From NCBI RefSeq assembly GCF_012569045.1, contig NZ_CP046196.1, forward strand, positions 67,290-131,289: DNA of 64,000 nt. Reading direction: 5' to 3'. The notes under the pieces were generated by a model, which saw nothing but the letters and a program-made list of their open reading frames with translations, had not been told where the DNA came from and ran no database searches. The DNA comes from Enterobacteriaceae endosymbiont of Donacia sparganii (GTDB lineage Bacteria; Pseudomonadota; Gammaproteobacteria; Enterobacterales; Enterobacteriaceae). Shown in pieces: positions 46,510-62,300 of this stretch (position 1 is its first letter; each line of letters begins with the position of its first letter). The position numbers were made by a program, and so were the translations under genes.

Positions 46510-47100
46510 TTATATTTTTAAAAAATTTTTAATTAATTGTATACCATTAATTCCTGATCTTTCTGGATGAAATTGTACTCCAAAAAAATTTTTTTTCTGA
46601 ATAACAGAACTAAAAATATTATCATAATTAGTAGTAGCTACTGTATAATCATTAATATTAACTTTATAACTGTGTGAAAAATAAAAATAAGAATTTTTAT
46701 TAATATTATTGAATAATGGCGATGATTTTATATTATTTACTTTATTCCAGCCCATATGAGGAACTGGTATATGTTTATTATTCATTAATTGAGAAAAATA
46801 ATCTAAAATTCCTAATGTAGAAATTCCATTATTTTCTTCACTATATTTACCTAAAATTTGCATACCTAAACATATCCCTAAAATATCTTTTTTACAATTT
46901 TGAATTAATTTTATTAAATTATCATTTTTTAATTTTTTAATTATAGAATTTGCTGAACCTACTCCTGGTAAAAAAATTTTATCAGCATTTAAAATTACAT
47001 CTTTTTTATTTGTAATTTCAGAATTAAATCCTATTTTTTTTATAGTAGTTTTTAAAGAATAAAAATTACCACAAGATGTATCTAAAATAACAATTTTCAA
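46510..47100 (-). CDS. hisH: Imidazole glycerol phosphate synthase, glutaminase subunit
   Basis: Class I glutamine amidotransferase that feeds ammonia to HisF. 196 residues (E. coli 196). The nucleophilic cysteine is in GICLGMQILG, and the His-Glu pair in FHPERSG. GVGSAN near the N-terminus is the oxyanion region. It overlaps hisB by four bases. Confidence 0.97.
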   Translation of the reverse strand: MKIVILDTSCGNFYSLKTTIKKIGFNSEITNKKDVILNADKIFLPGVGSANSIIKKLKNDNLIKLIQNCKKDILGICLGMQILGKYSEENNGISTLGILDYFSQLMNNKHIPVPHMGWNKVNNIKSSPLFNNINKNSYFYFSHSYKVNINDYTVATTNYDNIFSSVIQKKNFFGVQFHPERSGINGIQLIKNFLKI

Positions 47101-48164
47101 TTTAAAACTCCTTTTGAACTAGGAATAATGTTATTTACAATTTTTATAGCTTTTTTTAAAGAACATCCAAATGCTTTAAATAAGCTTTCAACTTTATGAT
47201 GATCATTTTCTCCTGTAGCTTTTAAATATATATTACATGACATAGAATATGATAAAGAATAAAAAAAATGTTTAATCATTTCTGTACTTAAATCACCAAT
47301 TTTTTGATATTTAAAATTTACATAATATTGTAAATATGGTCTACCAGATAGATCTAATGAACATTGAGCTAATGATTCATCCATTGGTAAAAAAAAACCA
47401 AATCTATTAATACCTCTTTTATTACCAAGAGCTTTAGAAAAAGCTTGTCCTAATGCTATTGCAATATCTTCTATAGTATGATGATCATCAATAAATAAAT
47501 CTCCTTTACTATAAATATTTAAAAGAAATCCTCCATGTATTGCTATTTGTTCTAACATATGATTTAAAAAATTAATTCCAGTATTAATAATATTTTTACC
47601 TTTTTTATTTAATAATAATTCTACATTTATTGTAGTTTCTTTTGTTATTCTTTTTATTATAGCATATCTTTTTATTGGTGTTAATTTTGTTAAAATATCT
47701 AACCAATTACATATTTTTTTATTATATAAAATACCTTGAATACCAATGTTTTTTGCTAATTCAATATCAGTTAAACGATCACCTATAACATAACTATTTT
47801 TTTTATCTAAATTATTATTTAAATATGGTTTTAATAATGTTAAATTTGGTTTTCGACATAAACAATTATCATAAGAATAATGAGGACAAATAAAAATATT
47901 TTCAAATTCTATATTTTGTGATTTAAAAATATTAATCATAAAATTATGGGGAATATTAAAAGATTTATGAGAGAAAGATTTACTTCCTAAACCATCTTGG
48001 TTTGTAATTATTACAAATAAATAAGAAAGTTTTTTTAAAGCTGATAATGTAATAATAACATTTTTTTCAAAAAATAATTTATTAATATGATCAATTTGAT
48101 AATTATTTTTAGGTTCAGATATTAAAGTTCCATCTCTATCTATAAAAAGTATTTTTTTTAACAT
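47097..48164 (-). CDS. hisB: Histidinol-phosphatase / imidazoleglycerol-phosphate dehydratase
   Basis: Bifunctional: the N-terminal HAD phosphatase (about residues 1-165) performs step 8, and the C-terminal dehydratase (about 166-355) step 6. 355 residues, the enterobacterial fused form. The phosphatase has DRDGTL and the zinc cysteines in CPHYSYDNCLC. The dehydratase has HMLEQIAIHGG, DDHHTIEDIAIALG and NDHHKVESLFKAFG metal motifs. The fused form is typical of gammaproteobacteria. Confidence 0.97.
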   Translation of the reverse strand: MLKKILFIDRDGTLISEPKNNYQIDHINKLFFEKNVIITLSALKKLSYLFVIITNQDGLGSKSFSHKSFNIPHNFMINIFKSQNIEFENIFICPHYSYDNCLCRKPNLTLLKPYLNNNLDKKNSYVIGDRLTDIELAKNIGIQGILYNKKICNWLDILTKLTPIKRYAIIKRITKETTINVELLLNKKGKNIINTGINFLNHMLEQIAIHGGFLLNIYSKGDLFIDDHHTIEDIAIALGQAFSKALGNKRGINRFGFFLPMDESLAQCSLDLSGRPYLQYYVNFKYQKIGDLSTEMIKHFFYSLSYSMSCNIYLKATGENDHHKVESLFKAFGCSLKKAIKIVNNIIPSSKGVLN

Positions 48165-48192: not shown

Positions 48193-50595
48193 TTAAGATA
48201 ATTTTTTTAATTCAAAAAATAATTTTTTACATTCGTAAAATGTTCCTACTGTAATTCTTAAACAATTATGTAATTTTTTTTCATGATTTTGATTTCTCAC
48301 AATTATTTTTTTTTTATTTAACATATTAAAAATATTATTAGAATTATTAAATTTTATTAGAATAAAATTAGTTTTACTATTAAATATAGTTTTTATACAA
48401 GGACAATTATTTAAATTATTTATTAACCATTTTTTATTATTAATTATTATTTTTACATTATTTTTCATAATAATTAAGTTTTTTAAATTTAAAGCTTGTA
48501 TAGCTATATCTATAACAGGATCAGGAATGGGATAGGGAGCTATAACTTTTATTAAAATATTAATAATATTTTTATTTGTTAATATAAAACCACAACGTAA
48601 CCCAGCTAATGCAAATGCTTTAGATAAAGTTCTTAATATAATTAAATTTTGATATTTATTTATTAAATAAGTTAAAGATTGATTAATACAAAATTCAATA
48701 TACGCTTCATCAATAACAATAATTATTTTATTTTTTGTTAATTCTAATAGTTTTATTATATTATTTATATTAATAGAATTACCAGTTGGATTATTAGGAT
48801 TACAAATATAAATAATTTTAACATTATTAAGATTTTTTTTAATTTTATCTAAATTTAATTCCCAATTATCTATACTATTAATCATTATATATTTAATATC
48901 TAATATCTCAGCAGTAACACGATACATATCATATGTTGGTGGACAAAATAGTATTTTATCATGTCTTTGATTACAAAATGTACGCATAATTATATCTATG
49001 CCTTCATCTGCTCCTCTTGTAATTAAAATGTTTTCAGTACTTAAATTTACATATCGACTATACATATTAATTAATTCTTTAGATTGAGGTTCTGGATATT
49101 TATTAAATATTTTTTTATTTAAAGTAAAATAAGAGGTAATAGGCGATTCATTAGCATTTAATAAAATTGAATGTTTCATATCACTTTTATATAGTGATCT
49201 AGCTGATTTATATGGAATTAAATTAATAATATTTTTTCGAGCTATTTTATTAATATTATTTATTTTTTTTTTTTGATGAAAAAAATTTTTATTAATAAAA
49301 TTTTTTCTTATTGTAATAGAATTACTATGTCCTAATAAATTTTCTGTTTTTGCCATAATTTCTACTGTATGAGAAATATTTAATAAACCCTTTTTTGTTA
49401 ATTTTTGTACATACATTCTTTTTTGAAAATCAGAAATTCCTAAACCTGAATATGTTAATGCATAACCATAAGTAGGTAAAACATGATTAGTTCCTGAAGC
49501 ATAATCTCCAACTGATTCAGGAGTCCAATGACCTAAAAAAATTGATCCTGCATTAATAATTTTAGATAAAATTTTTTCATAATTATGACATTGGATAATA
49601 AGATGTTCAGGAGCATATTTATTTATTATTTTTATACATTCTTCAATATTTTTAACTATTATAATATGACTATTACTAATAGATTTTTTTGCTATATTTT
49701 TTTTAGGTAATTTTTCTAATTGTTGAGAAAGACCTTTTTGAACTAATTTTGCAATTTTTTCTTCAGTAGTAATTAAAAATACTTGAGAATCAATTCCATG
49801 TTCTGCTTGTGATAATAAATCTGCTATAATAAAATTATAATTTGCAGTATTATCAGCTAAAATAATTAATTCTGATGGACCTGCTGGCATATCTATAGAA
49901 ATATTACTATAAATTTTATTTTGATTACTTACTTGTTTTTTAGCCTCTGTAACAAAAAAATTTCCTGGTCCAAAAATTTTATTTACTCTATTAATAGATT
50001 CTGTACCAAAAGCCATGGCTGCTATAGCATGGGCTCCTCCTACCTGAAAAATATTTTTTATATTACATAAATAAGCTGCAAATAAAATTTCGTTAGATAT
50101 TGGAGCAGGAGAACATAATATAATTTCAGGACATAAAGCTAATTGAGCAGGAATTCCTAACATTAATACAGTGGAAAATAATGAAGATGTTCCTCCTGGG
50201 ACGTATAATCCAACTTTAGGTATAGGACGATAAATTTGTTTACAAAAAACTCCAGGTATAATTTCAATTATTTTTTTTTTAAAAATCTGATATTTATGAA
50301 ATTTATATATATTATTATAAGCACTTTGTATTGCATTTTTAATGTTTTTATCTATATAAAATTTTGCATTATTTATTTTTTCTGTATTAATTTTTAAATT
50401 ATCAATTTTTATTTTATCAAATAATAAATTATATTTTTTTAAAGCATTATCTCCTTTTTTTTTTACTTGATTTAAAATATTTGTTACATTATTTTTAATT
50501 TTTTTATCTATTAAAAATATTGGTCGAGATAATATTTTTTTTTTTTCATCTTTATTATGATTATGCCAATAAATTAAATTATTTATAATAGTCAT
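48193..50595 (-). CDS. hisDC: In-frame fusion of histidinol dehydrogenase (HisD) and histidinol-phosphate aminotransferase (HisC)
   Basis: Normally two adjacent genes; here one frame of 800 codons. HisD (about residues 1-440) catalyses the last two oxidations to histidine and shows the PGNFFVTEAK, MPAGPSE and QAEHG motifs. HisC (about 446-800) makes histidinol phosphate; its pyridoxal lysine is in TLSKAFALAGLRCGF. The join is a 12-A run (49263-49274) coding Q441 to I445. No ATG lies at the HisC start expected from E. coli, so HisC depends on read-through. With 11 or 13 A the frame stops at once (TAA), giving HisD of 444 or 446 residues. hisG starts four bases upstream on the same transcript. 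Confidence 0.92.
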   Translation of the reverse strand: MTIINNLIYWHNHNKDEKKKILSRPIFLIDKKIKNNVTNILNQVKKKGDNALKKYNLLFDKIKIDNLKINTEKINNAKFYIDKNIKNAIQSAYNNIYKFHKYQIFKKKIIEIIPGVFCKQIYRPIPKVGLYVPGGTSSLFSTVLMLGIPAQLALCPEIILCSPAPISNEILFAAYLCNIKNIFQVGGAHAIAAMAFGTESINRVNKIFGPGNFFVTEAKKQVSNQNKIYSNISIDMPAGPSELIILADNTANYNFIIADLLSQAEHGIDSQVFLITTEEKIAKLVQKGLSQQLEKLPKKNIAKKSISNSHIIIVKNIEECIKIINKYAPEHLIIQCHNYEKILSKIINAGSIFLGHWTPESVGDYASGTNHVLPTYGYALTYSGLGISDFQKRMYVQKLTKKGLLNISHTVEIMAKTENLLGHSNSITIRKNFINKNFFHQKKKINNINKIARKNIINLIPYKSARSLYKSDMKHSILLNANESPITSYFTLNKKIFNKYPEPQSKELINMYSRYVNLSTENILITRGADEGIDIIMRTFCNQRHDKILFCPPTYDMYRVTAEILDIKYIMINSIDNWELNLDKIKKNLNNVKIIYICNPNNPTGNSININNIIKLLELTKNKIIIVIDEAYIEFCINQSLTYLINKYQNLIILRTLSKAFALAGLRCGFILTNKNIINILIKVIAPYPIPDPVIDIAIQALNLKNLIIMKNNVKIIINNKKWLINNLNNCPCIKTIFNSKTNFILIKFNNSNNIFNMLNKKKIIVRNQNHEKKLHNCLRITVGTFYECKKLFFELKKLS
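49263..49274 (-). repeat. 12-A run at the hisD/hisC junction
   Basis: Twelve A on the coding strand lie exactly where hisD should end. In the genome they keep hisD and hisC in one frame. An 11-A message gives three lysines then TAA; a 13-A message gives Lys, Asn, Lys then TAA. It is therefore a possible ratio switch between HisD and HisDC products. Confidence 0.75.
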
Positions 50596-50599
50596 TTTA

Positions 50600-51499
50600 T
50601 TACTCCATTATTTTTTCAATAGGTAAAACTAAAATAGAACTTGCTCCTAATAATTTTAATTTTTCCATTTTTTCCCAAAATAGTGTTTCACTACATACCA
50701 TATGTATGGCTATTTTTTTAGTTTCTCCCATTAATGGTAAAATAGTAGGATTTTTAACATAAGATAATAATGACATTACTTGTTTTAATTTTTTATTTGG
50801 AATATGTAACATTATATATTTAGATTCTCTAGCTTGAATAACTCCTTTTATTCTAGTTAATAATTTATTTATTAATTTTTGTTTAAAATTTGATATTTTA
50901 TCATAACGTTGTATTAAACACGCTTGAGAAGCATATATAATTTCTACTTCTTTAATACCATTAGCTTCTAATGTTGCTCCTGTTGAAACTAAATCACAAA
51001 TAGCATCTGATAAACCTACTCTAGGAGCTAATTCTACTGAACCATTTAACATACATGATTTAAATATAATATGATGTTTATCGAGATACTTTTTTAATAA
51101 ATTAGGATAAGAAGTTGCTATACAAGTATTTTGTAAAGATTGTAATCCTGTATAATTTTTATTAATAGGAATTGCTATAGATAATCTACATATACCAAAA
51201 TCTAATTTACGTAATGTTAGATAATTTGCATTATCTCCTCTTGAGAGTCTAGTTAAAACTTCTTCTTCCAAAACATTTTTCCCAATAATACCTAAATCAA
51301 CTACACCTTCCATAATTAATCCAGGAATATCATCATCACGTACTCTCAGAATATCAATAGGCATATTTTCTGTAAAAGCAATTAATCGTTGTTGTTGTAA
51401 ATTAATTTTAAGACCACAATTTTTTAAAAGTTTACTAGATTCATTACTTAAACGACCAGATTTTTGTATTGCAATACGTAAACGATTATTATCTAGCAT
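50600..51499 (-). CDS. hisG: ATP phosphoribosyltransferase (long form)
   Basis: First committed step of histidine synthesis, condensing PRPP and ATP; feedback-inhibited by histidine in relatives. 299 residues, the E. coli length. The PRPP-binding [17 protein letters not shown] motif is intact. The C-terminal regulatory ACT-like domain (about residues 225-299) is present, so product inhibition is probably kept. The 187 bases upstream, before rnhA, contain no His-rich leader peptide and no G/C-rich attenuator, so attenuation seems lost. Confidence 0.97.
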
Positions 51500-51686
51500 A
51501 TTTTACCTTTTTATTTAAAAAACTTTAATTTTTTAAATATAAATTTAATAATTAAAAATTATTTATTTTATTTAAACTTAAATAACTTATTTAAAAATAA
51601 CAACCATTTTTATTAAAAATTTTTTATAAATTTATTTTTTTAAATTTTATAAAAATATTTTTTAAAAAATTAAAATATATTTATTT

Positions 51687-56328: not shown

Positions 56329-58341
56329 TTAATTATATATATTTTTAAAAATTTTTTTAATTTTTAAAATAATGTTTTCAACAGTAAAACCAAATATTTT
56401 AAATAATTCTTTTGCAGGAGCAGAATATCCAAAAGTATTAATACCAATTACACTACCATTTAAACCTACATATTTATACCAAAAATCTTTAGAACCAGCT
56501 TCAATAGCTATTCTACATTTAATATTAATAGGTAATATATAATTTTTATATTCTTTTGTTTGTTTATCAAAGGTATCAGTAGATGGCATAGATACTACTC
56601 TAATTTTATATTTTGAAATAGATAATTTTTTATATACTTCAACAGCTAAAGATACTTCAGAACCAGAAGCAATTAAAATAATTTGGGGATTTTTATCTAT
56701 ACAATCTTTTAATATATATCCTCCATATGATATAAATGATATTTCTTTTTTATTTCTTTTTTGTGTAGGTAAATTTTGTCTGGATAAAACTAATACAGTA
56801 GGTTTAGATATATTTTCAATAGCAATTTTCCATGCTAGAGCGGTTTCAATTTGATCACATGGACGCCAAATACTTATATTTGGAATTAATCTTAAACTAG
56901 ATAATTGTTCTATAGGTTGATGTGTAGGTCCATCTTCTCCTAATCCTATAGAATCATGGGTAAAAATCATTATATTTCTAATTTTCATTAAAGAAGCCAT
57001 TCTTATGGCATTACGACAATAATCTGAAAAAACTAAAAAAGTAGCAGTATAAGTAATAAATCCCTTATATAAGGAAATTCCATTTGCTATAGCCATCATA
57101 CCAAATTCTCTTACTCCATAATGGATATAATTACCATCTTTAAATTGATTAATAGGTCGAGAATTTTTTAAAAAAGTTAGATTACTACTAGATAAATCTG
57201 CAGAACCTCCGAATAATTCTGGTAATAATTTTGAATATTTTTGTAAAATATTCTTAGATGCTTCTCTTGTTGAAAGATTAATATTAAAATGATTTAATTT
57301 ATGGATATATTTATTTATTTTATTATTCCAATTATATGGTAGAATATTATTAATTCTTCTTTTAAATTCTTTAGCTAAAAGAGGAAATTTATGATAATAA
57401 TTTTTAAACATATTTATCCATTTAAGTTCTTTTATACTACCTATTTTTTTTGCATTCCATTTGTCATAAATATATTCAGGAATTTCAAAAGGTTTATAAT
57501 GCCAATTTAATTTTTTTCTTATTAGTATAATTTCTTCTTTACCTAAAGGAGTTCCATGTGCAATATTTTTTCCTGATTTATTAGGTGATCCAAAAGCAAT
57601 AATTGTATTACAAATTAATAAAGAAGGTTTTTCTTCTTTAAGAGATTTAGCATTTTCAATAGCTATTTCTATATTTTTATAATTATGTCCATTTATATTT
57701 GGAATAACATTCCATCCATAAGATTCAAATCTTTTTTGAGTATCATCATTACACCATCCTTTAATATTTCCATCTATAGAAATGTTATTATTATCATAAA
57801 AAACTATTAATTTTTTTAATTTTAATGTTCCTGCTAAAGAACATACTTCATGAGAAATACCTTCCATTAAACAACCATCACCTACAAAAACATAAATATA
57901 ATGATCAATTATATTAAAATCTAATCTATTAAATTGTGCTGCTAACGTTTTTTCAGCTATAGCCATACCAACAGCATTTGCTAATCCTTGTCCTAAAGGA
58001 CCAGTACTAGTTTCAATATTAGAAGTACAGCCATATTCAGGATGTCCCGGAGTTTTAGAATATAGTTTTCGAAATTTTTTTAAATCAGAAATTGTTAAAT
58101 TATATCCAGTTAAATGTAACAAACTATACATTAACATTACACAATGTCCATTGGATAATATAAATCGATCACGATTTATCCATAAAGGATTATTAGGATT
58201 ATGATTTAGATAATTACGCCAAAGTACTTCAGCTATATCTGCCATACCCATTGGTGCTCCAGGATGTCCGGACTGAGCATTTTCTATAGCATCTATACTT
58301 AAAAATCGAATAGCATTAGCAAGATTTCTTCTAGAAGGCAT
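56329..58341 (-). CDS. tktA: Transketolase
   Basis: Thiamine-diphosphate enzyme of the non-oxidative pentose phosphate pathway, supplying ribose-5-phosphate for PRPP. 670 residues (663 in E. coli TktA). The ThDP motif starts GDGCLMEG, and [30 protein letters not shown] and [16 protein letters not shown] are intact. In E. coli epd lies between tktA and pgk; here only 37 bases do, so epd (a PLP-synthesis dehydrogenase) is deleted. Divergent from metK across 200 A/T-rich bases with nothing recognisable. Confidence 0.97.
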
Positions 58342-58541
58342 AATTTAAATTACTCCTAAAGTTAAAACAAAAATATTTTATAAAAAAATTATTTATATAA
58401 AGAAATATATACTTAAAATGTTTTAAAATCTATGTATTATAATTTTAAAATTTTAATTTTTAAAAATTTTATATATATTTTATTTTAAATAAATATATAA
58501 TAATAAAGAAAAAATATTTTTAATTATAAAAGGTAATATTA

Positions 58542-59696
58542 ATGACAGAATATTTATTTACATCAGAATCTGTATCAGAAGGACATCCTGATAAAATAGC
58601 AGATCAAATTTCAGATGCTATACTAGATGATATAATAAAACAAGATATTAAGGCTCGTGTAGCATGTGAAACATATATTAAAAATAATATGATATTAATT
58701 GGAGGAGAAATAACTACAAAAGCTAAAATAAATATAGAAAAAATAACAAGAAAAACTATAAAAGAAATAGGATACACTAATCCTAATGCAGGATTTAATG
58801 CTAATACATGTACAATACTAAATATTATTAGTAAACAATCGGAAGATATTAATAAAGGAATAACATCTAATTTAGATAGATACAATCAAGGAGCAGGAGA
58901 TCAAGGTTTTGTTTTTGGATATGCAACAAATGAAACAGATGTTTTTATGCCAGCACCTATTGTATATGCACATAAATTAGTATATCAACAAGCACAAATT
59001 AGAAAAAAAAAAATATTATCATGGTTAGAACCAGATGCTAAAAGTCAAATTACTTTTAAATATAAAAATAATAAAATTATTAATATAGATTCTGTTGTTT
59101 TATCTACACAAATTTCTAAAGAAATATCATATAAAAAATTACAAGAAGCTATTATGGAAGAAATTATTAAACCAGTTTTGCCTAAAAATTGGATAAATAA
59201 AAAAACAAAATTTTTTATTAATCCTTCCGGTCGTTTTATTATAGGAGGACCTGTTAGTGATTGTGGTTTAACTGGAAGAAAAATTATTGTAGATACTTAT
59301 GGAGGAATGGCTAGACATGGAGGAGGAGCTTTTTCAGGTAAAGATCCATCTAAAGTAGATAGATCTGCTGCTTATGCAGCGCGTTATATAGCAAAAAATA
59401 TAGTAGCATCCTCTTTAGCTTCACGTTGTGAGATACAAATTGCCTATATTATAGGTATTGCTAATCCAATTTCAATAATGGTAAATACTTTTGGTACTGG
59501 AAAAGTATCTAATAAAAAAATAATATTATTTATTAAAGAAATTTTTGACTTAAGACCTTTTAATTTAATTAAAATGTTAGATCTTTTAAAACCAATATAT
59601 AAAAAAACTGCATGTTATGGCCATTTTGGAAGAAATATTTTTACATGGGAAAAAATAGATGAAGTAAATAAATTTAAAGATTTTTTTAGTATTTAA
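58542..59696 (+). CDS. metK: S-adenosylmethionine synthetase
   Basis: Makes SAM from methionine and ATP; SAM is used by LipA and PrmC in this window. 384 residues, as in E. coli. The ATP motif [12 protein letters not shown] and the signature [18 protein letters not shown] are intact; the N-terminal [19 protein letters not shown] is typical. A ribosome site (AAAGGTAAT) precedes the ATG. It converges with gyrA. Confidence 0.98.
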
Positions 59697-59699
59697 GAA

Positions 59700-59732
59700 A
59701 AAAAATATTAATTATTTATAATAATATTTTTT
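59700..59732. terminator. A/T-only inverted repeat between metK and gyrA
   Basis: AAAAAATATTA at 59700-59710 is the exact reverse complement of 59722-59732, with an 11-base loop, starting four bases after the metK stop. Located between convergent genes and ending in a T run on each strand, it is a likely but weak bidirectional terminator. Confidence 0.45.
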
Positions 59733-59765
59733 AAAAAATTAAATTCCATAAATTAGAAAGATTAT

Positions 59766-62300
59766 TTAAATTTTCTGTAATCCAACAATTTTTTCATTAA
59801 ATTTAGTTTTCATTATAATTACACCTTTAGTATTACGTCCAACAACACAAATTTCAGATATATTAACACGTATAAGTGTTCCCATATTAGTTATAATAAT
59901 AACTTGATCATTGTTTTCTACTTTTAAAGATCCTATTAATTTTCCATTTCTTTTATTAATTTTTATAGATATAACACCTTTTGTAGATCTAGATTTTGTT
60001 GGAAATGCTATGTGATTTGTACATTTACCGTATCCATTTTCTGTTATAGTAAAAATATTATTTTTAGATTTATGTTTTATAATTATTAATGAAACTATAT
60101 AATCATCTTTTTTATTTAAAATATTCATTCCTTTTACACCTATTGTATTCCTTTCCATAGATCTAATTTGAGATTCATTAAATTTAACTGCTTTTCCTGA
60201 AGAAGAAAATAACATTATTTTATCATCTTTATTAACAAGTGATACTCCTATTAAAGTATCGTTTTTTTTTAATTTTATTGCAATAATTCCATTAGATCTA
60301 GGATTACTAAATTTTTTTAAATTTGTTTTCTTTATTTTTCCTTGTGAAGTTACTAAAATTAGATTTGAATTATTTGTATAGTCATTTACTACAAGAAAAC
60401 TATTAATTACTTCTTTATCTCTTAAAGAAATTAAATTTATAATAGGTCTTCCTTTAGCATATCTGTTAGCTTCAGGAATATTATATACTTTTAACCAATA
60501 TAAACGACCTTTATTAGAAAAACATAAGATGTTATCATGAGTATATGCTATTAAAATTTTATGAATAAAATCATTTTCTTTTAATTTTATAGCTAATTTA
60601 CCTTTACCTCCTCTATGTTGTAAATTATATTCAGTAATTTTCTGATATTTAATATAACCTTGATAAGATAAAGTAATAATAACTTTTTCATGATTAATTA
60701 AATCCTTTTTTTGAATAAAAGAATTATTATTGAAAATAATTTCTGTTTTTCTATGATCTCCAAATTCTTTTTTTATTAAAATTAATTCATTATAGATTAC
60801 TTTCATTAAGTATTCATAATTATTAATAATTTTAATTAATTTTGATATTTTATATATCAAATTTTGATATTCTATACATAATTTTTTATGTTCTAGGGTT
60901 GTTAATTTATTTAATTTTAATTCTAAAATAGCTTGAATTTGTTTATAACTAAAATGATAATTATCATTAAATTTTATTAAATTAGAATTAGTTAAATAAA
61001 TATTTAATGTTTTTTTTTCTTTTAAATCAAAAATTTGAAATATATTTGGAATTTTCCAAGATTGAATATAAATTTTATTTCTTATAGTTTCTGATATTTT
61101 AGAAGAACGTATAATTTTTATAATTTCTTGTATATTTAATAAAGCTACTATTAATCCTTCTAATATATGTGCTTTATTGCGAGCTTTATCTATTTCATAA
61201 TTTGTTCTTCTTATCACTATTTCACGACGATGAGAAATAAATGCTTTAATAATTTTTTTTAAAGACATTAATTTAGGCTCACCCTTATATAAGGAAACCA
61301 TTTTTATACTAAAAGTAGTTTGTAATGATGTTAATTTATATAAATTATTTAAAAGAACATTAATAGATATATCTTTTTTGATTTTAATTAAAATACGTAT
61401 ACCATCTTTATCAGATTCATCTCTTAAAGTTTTAATACCTTGAATTTTTTTTTCTTTTATTAAAAAAGCTATTTTTTCTATTAATTTAGATTTATTTACT
61501 TGATAGGGGAGTTCATAAATTATGATAGTTTTATAATTTTTTTTTTCATCTTTAATTATTTTAATACGTCCTCTAAGAAAAATTTTTCCTTTTCCTGTAC
61601 TATAAGCATTTTCAATACCATTTATACCATAAATAATCCCTGCAGTAGGAAAATCTGGACCTGGAATATGATTCATTAAATCTTTAGTAGTAATTGAATT
61701 ATTATTAATATAAGCTAAACAAGCATTAATTACTTCAGTAATATTATGAGGAGGAATGTTAGTTGTCATTCCTACAGCTATACCTGATGATCCATTTATT
61801 AATAAATTAGGTATTTTAGTAGGCATTATTTCAGGTATTTTTTCAGTACCATCATAATTAGGTAAAAAATTTACTGTATTTTTTTCTAAATCAGTAATAA
61901 TCTCCTGAGAAATTTTAGACATTTTTACTTCAGTATAACGCATAGCAGCAGCTGAATCTCCATCAATAGAACCAAAATTACCTTGTCCATTTATTAATGG
62001 ATATCTTAAAGAAAATATTTGAGCTAATCTTACAATAGTATCATAAACTGCATTATCTCCATGAGGATGATATTTTCCTATAACATCACCTACTATTCTT
62101 GCTGATTTTTTATAAGGTTTATTCCATGTATTTCCTAATACATACATAGCGTATAATATACGTCTATGTACTGGTTTTAATCCATCTCTTACATCTGGTA
62201 ATGCTCTTCCTATTATAACTGACATAGCATAATCTAAATAAGAATTTTTTAATTCTTCTTCAATATTAATTAATTTTATTTCTTTAGCAAAAGAATTCAT
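59766..62300 (-). CDS. gyrA: DNA gyrase subunit A
   Basis: Breakage-reunion subunit that introduces negative supercoils with GyrB. 844 residues (875 in E. coli). The catalytic tyrosine is in [10 protein letters not shown] near residue 122, and the GyrA box needed for wrapping is QHRGGKGK, so true gyrase rather than Topo IV. Residue 83 is Asn where E. coli has Ser ([10 protein letters not shown]), a position linked to quinolone binding. The acidic C-terminal tail of the E. coli protein is missing: the chain ends GLQKI. In E. coli this tail tunes supercoiling activity. Confidence 0.97.

Follow-up and report, generated by a model that had tools for sequence, protein, structure and literature searches.

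The hisDC locus and its two halves

The window, i.e., the whole stretch of 64,000 nucleotides that was analysed, stems from the Enterobacteriaceae endosymbiont of Donacia sparganii (contig NZ_CP046196.1, positions 67,290 to 131,289). The genome of this symbiont consists of a chromosome of 466,482 bp and a plasmid of 5,238 bp, and it has a GC content of 20%. All coordinates given below are window positions unless they are marked as plasmid or chromosome. The locus under study lies within a his operon on the minus strand and has the following features, listed in the direction of reading:

50600..51499, minus strand: hisG, the upstream neighbour of hisDC in the his operon (translation and gene order)
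48193..50595, minus strand: hisDC, a single frame of 800 aa encoding HisD (histidinol dehydrogenase) and HisC (histidinol-phosphate aminotransferase)
50535..50546, minus strand: second A12 run of hisDC, inside HisD, codons 17-21 (read from the sequence)
49306..50487, minus strand: HisD domain, residues 37-430 (TIGR00069 match; alignment to E. coli HisD, 1k75)
49240..49305, minus strand: linker, residues 431-452, which differs in sequence and length among species (24-species comparison)
49263..49274, minus strand: A12 run of the linker, Gln441-Lys-Lys-Lys-Ile445 (read from the sequence)
48202..49239, minus strand: HisC domain, residues 453-798 (TIGR01141 match; alignment to E. coli HisC, 1fg3)
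47097..48164, minus strand: hisB of the HisNB type, the downstream neighbour of hisDC (translation and gene order)

Translations and gene order revealed that hisDC is followed by hisB, hisH, hisA, hisF and hisIE. Attenuation control of the his operon has been suggested for reed-beetle symbionts (PMC12508126). The region upstream of hisG (window 51500-51686) shows no stretch of histidine codons.

Both halves of the D. sparganii frame match their families over nearly the entire profile. The HisD half reached 508.4 bits with TIGR00069 (cut-off 243.8; profile positions 1-393 of 393), and the HisC half 357.1 bits with TIGR01141 (cut-off 276.55; profile positions 1-348 of 349). Full-length matches to both families above the cut-off were found for the symbionts of D. 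sparganii, D. thalassina, M. mutica and P. pusilla. The positions for catalysis and cofactor binding agree with those of the E. coli enzymes (1k75 and 1fg3). In an alignment of 29 sequences, Q263, H266, E330, H331, D364, H371, E418 and H423 of HisD as well as N602, D629, Y632, K659, R667 and R780 of HisC were invariant. K659, the PLP lysine, aligns with K214 of E. coli HisC; the roles of the listed residues in zinc binding, catalysis and cofactor binding are presumed to be those of the E. coli enzymes. The dN/dS values, obtained for nine species pairs with a simple Nei-Gojobori count, were 0.14-0.28 for HisD and 0.10-0.41 for HisC. As judged from these ratios, both halves of hisDC are under purifying selection, and the sequence features suggest that HisD and HisC are both active in the joined protein.

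The join and its conservation

The frame was compared in 24 genomes of the symbiont genus, including that of the D. sparganii symbiont, from hosts of the genera Donacia, Plateumaris, Neohaemonia and Macroplea; the set comprises the 26 published genomes except those of the D. versicolorea and D. semicuprea symbionts. hisDC was a single stop-free frame in 24 of 24 genomes, with 60-100% identity. This includes the reference genome of the Macroplea mutica symbiont, for which PacBio reads were used (PMC7289800). In the 24 linkers, which together have 649 codons, there was no stop in the reading frame, versus 50 and 134 stops in the other two frames. A base-shuffled linker stays open with a probability of 0.01-0.06 each; the species are related and the trials are, therefore, not independent. 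Because the open frame across the join is kept in all 24 genomes, it cannot be explained by chance. The length differences between the linkers are whole codons, and the mean pairwise identity of the linker was only 45%, compared with 73% for HisD and 69% for HisC. An apparent in-frame duplication in HisC of the Plateumaris sericea symbiont was rejected, as it turned out to be an assembly gap, a stretch of N with duplicated flanking sequence.

At the join the D. sparganii frame reads TTT CAT CAA AAA AAA AAA ATA AAT AAT ATT AAT AAA ATA GCT. The sequence-only reading had stated that hisD runs into hisC without a stop, that the join is exactly A12, that a one-base shift in either direction ends the chain after HisD, and that HisC has no ATG start. 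All of this was verified: removal of one A leads to an immediate TAA, addition of one A leads to a stop two codons on, and the D. sparganii linker contains no in-frame ATG, GTG or TTG. The same lack of an in-frame start codon was seen in 18 of the 24 linkers. The other six contain ATG (four linkers) or TTG (two linkers), at inconsistent positions. Since ATG, GTG and TTG are absent from these 18 linkers, HisC most likely depends on translation that reads on from HisD, and this would be the way in which HisC is mostly made in most of the species.

Outside the genus the situation is different. In most of the sampled genomes of the family, order, class and phylum, hisD and hisC are separated by a stop or lie in different frames. 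An unbroken hisD-hisC frame was found in five of them; named species with such a frame are Photorhabdus noenieputensis, P. caribbeanensis, P. bodei, Photorhabdus sp. CRCIA-P01 and Xenorhabdus beddingii. In these species HisD also continues into HisC without a stop, but, in contrast to the reed-beetle symbionts, the ATG of HisC is kept, and in Photorhabdus it is preceded by a GGAG/GGAA-like motif. HisC could thus still be initiated on its own in Photorhabdus and Xenorhabdus. Since the two genes are not fused in other species of Photorhabdus and Xenorhabdus, these fusions look recent and separate. The sequence comparison suggests that a HisDC fusion probably arose more than once. The reed-beetle case is set apart because the HisC start is mostly gone and the fusion is fixed across the whole sampled genus.

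As in hisNB and hisIE of enterobacterial his operons (PMC8305728), adjacent his genes yield one bifunctional protein, but hisDC represents a different gene pair, and the steps of HisD and HisC are not consecutive. A literature search that covered few subscription journals retrieved no description of a hisD-hisC fusion.

A runs and interpretation of the fusion

The sequence-only reading had further proposed that RNA polymerase slips on the A12 run and that the ratio of HisDC to free HisD is set by this slippage. The stops that directly follow either one-base shift would fit such a switch, the A18 run of D. thalassina has the same double stop, and slippage on long A runs is documented for insect symbionts (PMC5009743, PMC3017870). 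Corrected frames were reported there for 12-50% of the transcripts (PMC5009743), and a figure of about 30% is cited in PMC3017870. The comparison with the sister genomes, however, revealed no conserved run length. The longest A run of the linker has 18 A in D. thalassina, 12 in D. sparganii and D. piscatrix, 10 in three further species, one of them D. marginata, and 6-9 in all others (8 in M. mutica), and, thus, a slippage-prone run of at least 10 A is present in only 6 of 24 species. A double stop within two codons of the longest run was found only for D. sparganii, D. thalassina and D. clavipes (A9).

In addition, such runs are common in this genome. The 388 called ORFs of the D. sparganii symbiont contain 291 sense A runs of at least 10 A and 66 of at least 12 A, and 45 runs of exactly 12 A, the join run included. 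For 89 of the 291 runs (31%) both one-base shifts lead to a stop within 5 codons, and for 19 (6.5%) within 2 codons, so that the double stop at the join is slightly uncommon, yet no surprise at 20% GC. The longest A run in the genes of this genome has 18 A and lies at codon 43 of a minus-strand ORF of 927 codons (chromosome 57394-60177). hisDC itself has its second A12 run at codon 17, and a slip there would abolish HisD and HisC alike. It also contains A10 runs (codons 44, 106 and 761). Moreover, free HisC cannot arise by slippage. Because the run is not conserved, similar runs are common, and a second A12 is present at codon 17, a slippage switch that sets HisDC and free HisD to a tuned ratio is not indicated, and this part of the sequence-only reading was not supported; we regard such a switch as very unlikely. 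The same holds for the narrower idea that in D. sparganii (A12) and D. thalassina (A18) slippage gives substantial, useful free HisD and the homopolymer length sets the enzyme ratio, which is highly improbable. Unregulated slippage at the join that makes some free HisD is plausible, but we infer that it has no regulatory role.

Runs of at least 10 A are enriched in the linker, with 6 per 649 codons versus 38 per 18,637 codons elsewhere in hisDC, i.e., an about 4.6-fold higher density (Fisher p 0.003, with species that are not independent of one another). This is as expected for a permissive segment.

An error in homopolymer length could hide two separate genes, and most of the reed-beetle symbiont genomes are indeed short-read assemblies (PMC7289800). 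All 24 genomes are fused, however, in most of them the A run at the join is shorter or broken up, and separate genes with an ATG were not seen in any sister genome. In D. sparganii either one-base change creates a stop, and, thus, an erroneous run length would have to reproduce the very frame found in every relative. An assembly error can practically be dismissed. Additional, separate translation of HisC, via a non-standard start codon or re-initiation inside the linker, is very unlikely. ATT and ATA codons are present at the expected HisC start in D. sparganii, and the ATG is kept at this position in the HisDC frames of the other genera, but against it stand the lack of standard start codons in three quarters of the linkers and the absence of a visible G-rich ribosome-binding motif from the D. 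sparganii linker. It is extremely unlikely that the HisC half is a decaying pseudogene behind HisD with another aminotransferase as substitute. This would agree with the published listing of hisC as missing (PMC7289800), but it is at odds with the full TIGR01141 match, the invariant active site and the purifying selection, and also with the small aminotransferase repertoire of the D. sparganii symbiont described below.

Taken together, hisDC is very probably an ancient, fixed gene fusion of the Donaciinae symbionts, and the A12 run one neutral variant of a linker under weak constraint. The stop of the ancestral hisD and the start of hisC would both have been lost, and one polypeptide would contain HisD and HisC, connected by a short, poorly conserved linker rich in Asn and Lys. 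The chain would fold into HisD followed by HisC. The A12 at the join would be one of several neutral states that a permissive linker can adopt in an AT-rich genome, and slippage of RNA polymerase at this run, if it occurs, would give a minor amount of prematurely ended HisD, as noise. The simplest consequence of the fusion would be a fixed 1:1 ratio of HisD and HisC. The phosphatase half of HisNB would catalyse the step between HisC and HisD (the order is in part that of PMC8305728), and, therefore, no direct channelling from one half of hisDC to the other is expected.

A related case is the slippage rescue in Buchnera and Blochmannia (PMC5009743, PMC3017870). Both cases involve AT-rich insect symbionts whose genes contain long A runs. 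In Buchnera and Blochmannia, however, a frame that is broken in the DNA is restored by slippage, whereas hisDC has an unbroken frame in the DNA, and the only possible effect of slippage would be the loss of HisC.

The hisC gene reported as missing, and the aminotransferases

HisC is responsible for step 7 and HisD for steps 9 and 10 of the histidine pathway (PMC8305728). Reis et al. (2020) reported that hisC is missing from otherwise complete pathways of reed-beetle symbionts, and another aminotransferase was suggested as substitute (PMC7289800). As the hisD frame contains hisC as its second half, this published gap looks like an annotation artefact, and no aminotransferase of the host or other substitute would be needed at this step. 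A gap in the histidine synthesis of reed-beetle symbionts is thereby apparently closed, and the example illustrates that in a reduced genome a fused gene can be mistaken for a lost one.

In the D. sparganii symbiont genome, PF00155 matched only one ORF besides the HisC half, and this ORF reads as SufS. PF00202, the class that includes ArgD, had no match in this genome. Because the HisC half is the sole PF00155 aminotransferase besides the SufS-like protein, it might also catalyse further transamination steps that lack an assigned enzyme in D. sparganii. Additional PF00155 matches were found within the genus in the Plateumaris genomes and in D. tomentosa, and, therefore, this point is restricted to D. 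sparganii.

Three further observations concern the plasmid of the D. sparganii symbiont. An ORF at plasmid positions 2905-3597 encodes a prephenate dehydratase of 230 aa with a match to the PDT domain only (residues 43-228). Plasmid positions 1-2847 encode a protein of 948 aa with an inverse-autotransporter barrel, a bacterial Ig-like domain and an InvE-type adhesion domain. Finally, about seven head-to-tail repeats of 22 bp are located at plasmid positions 4872-5020; the same plasmid carries a TrfA-like replication gene, and the repeats could be replication iterons.
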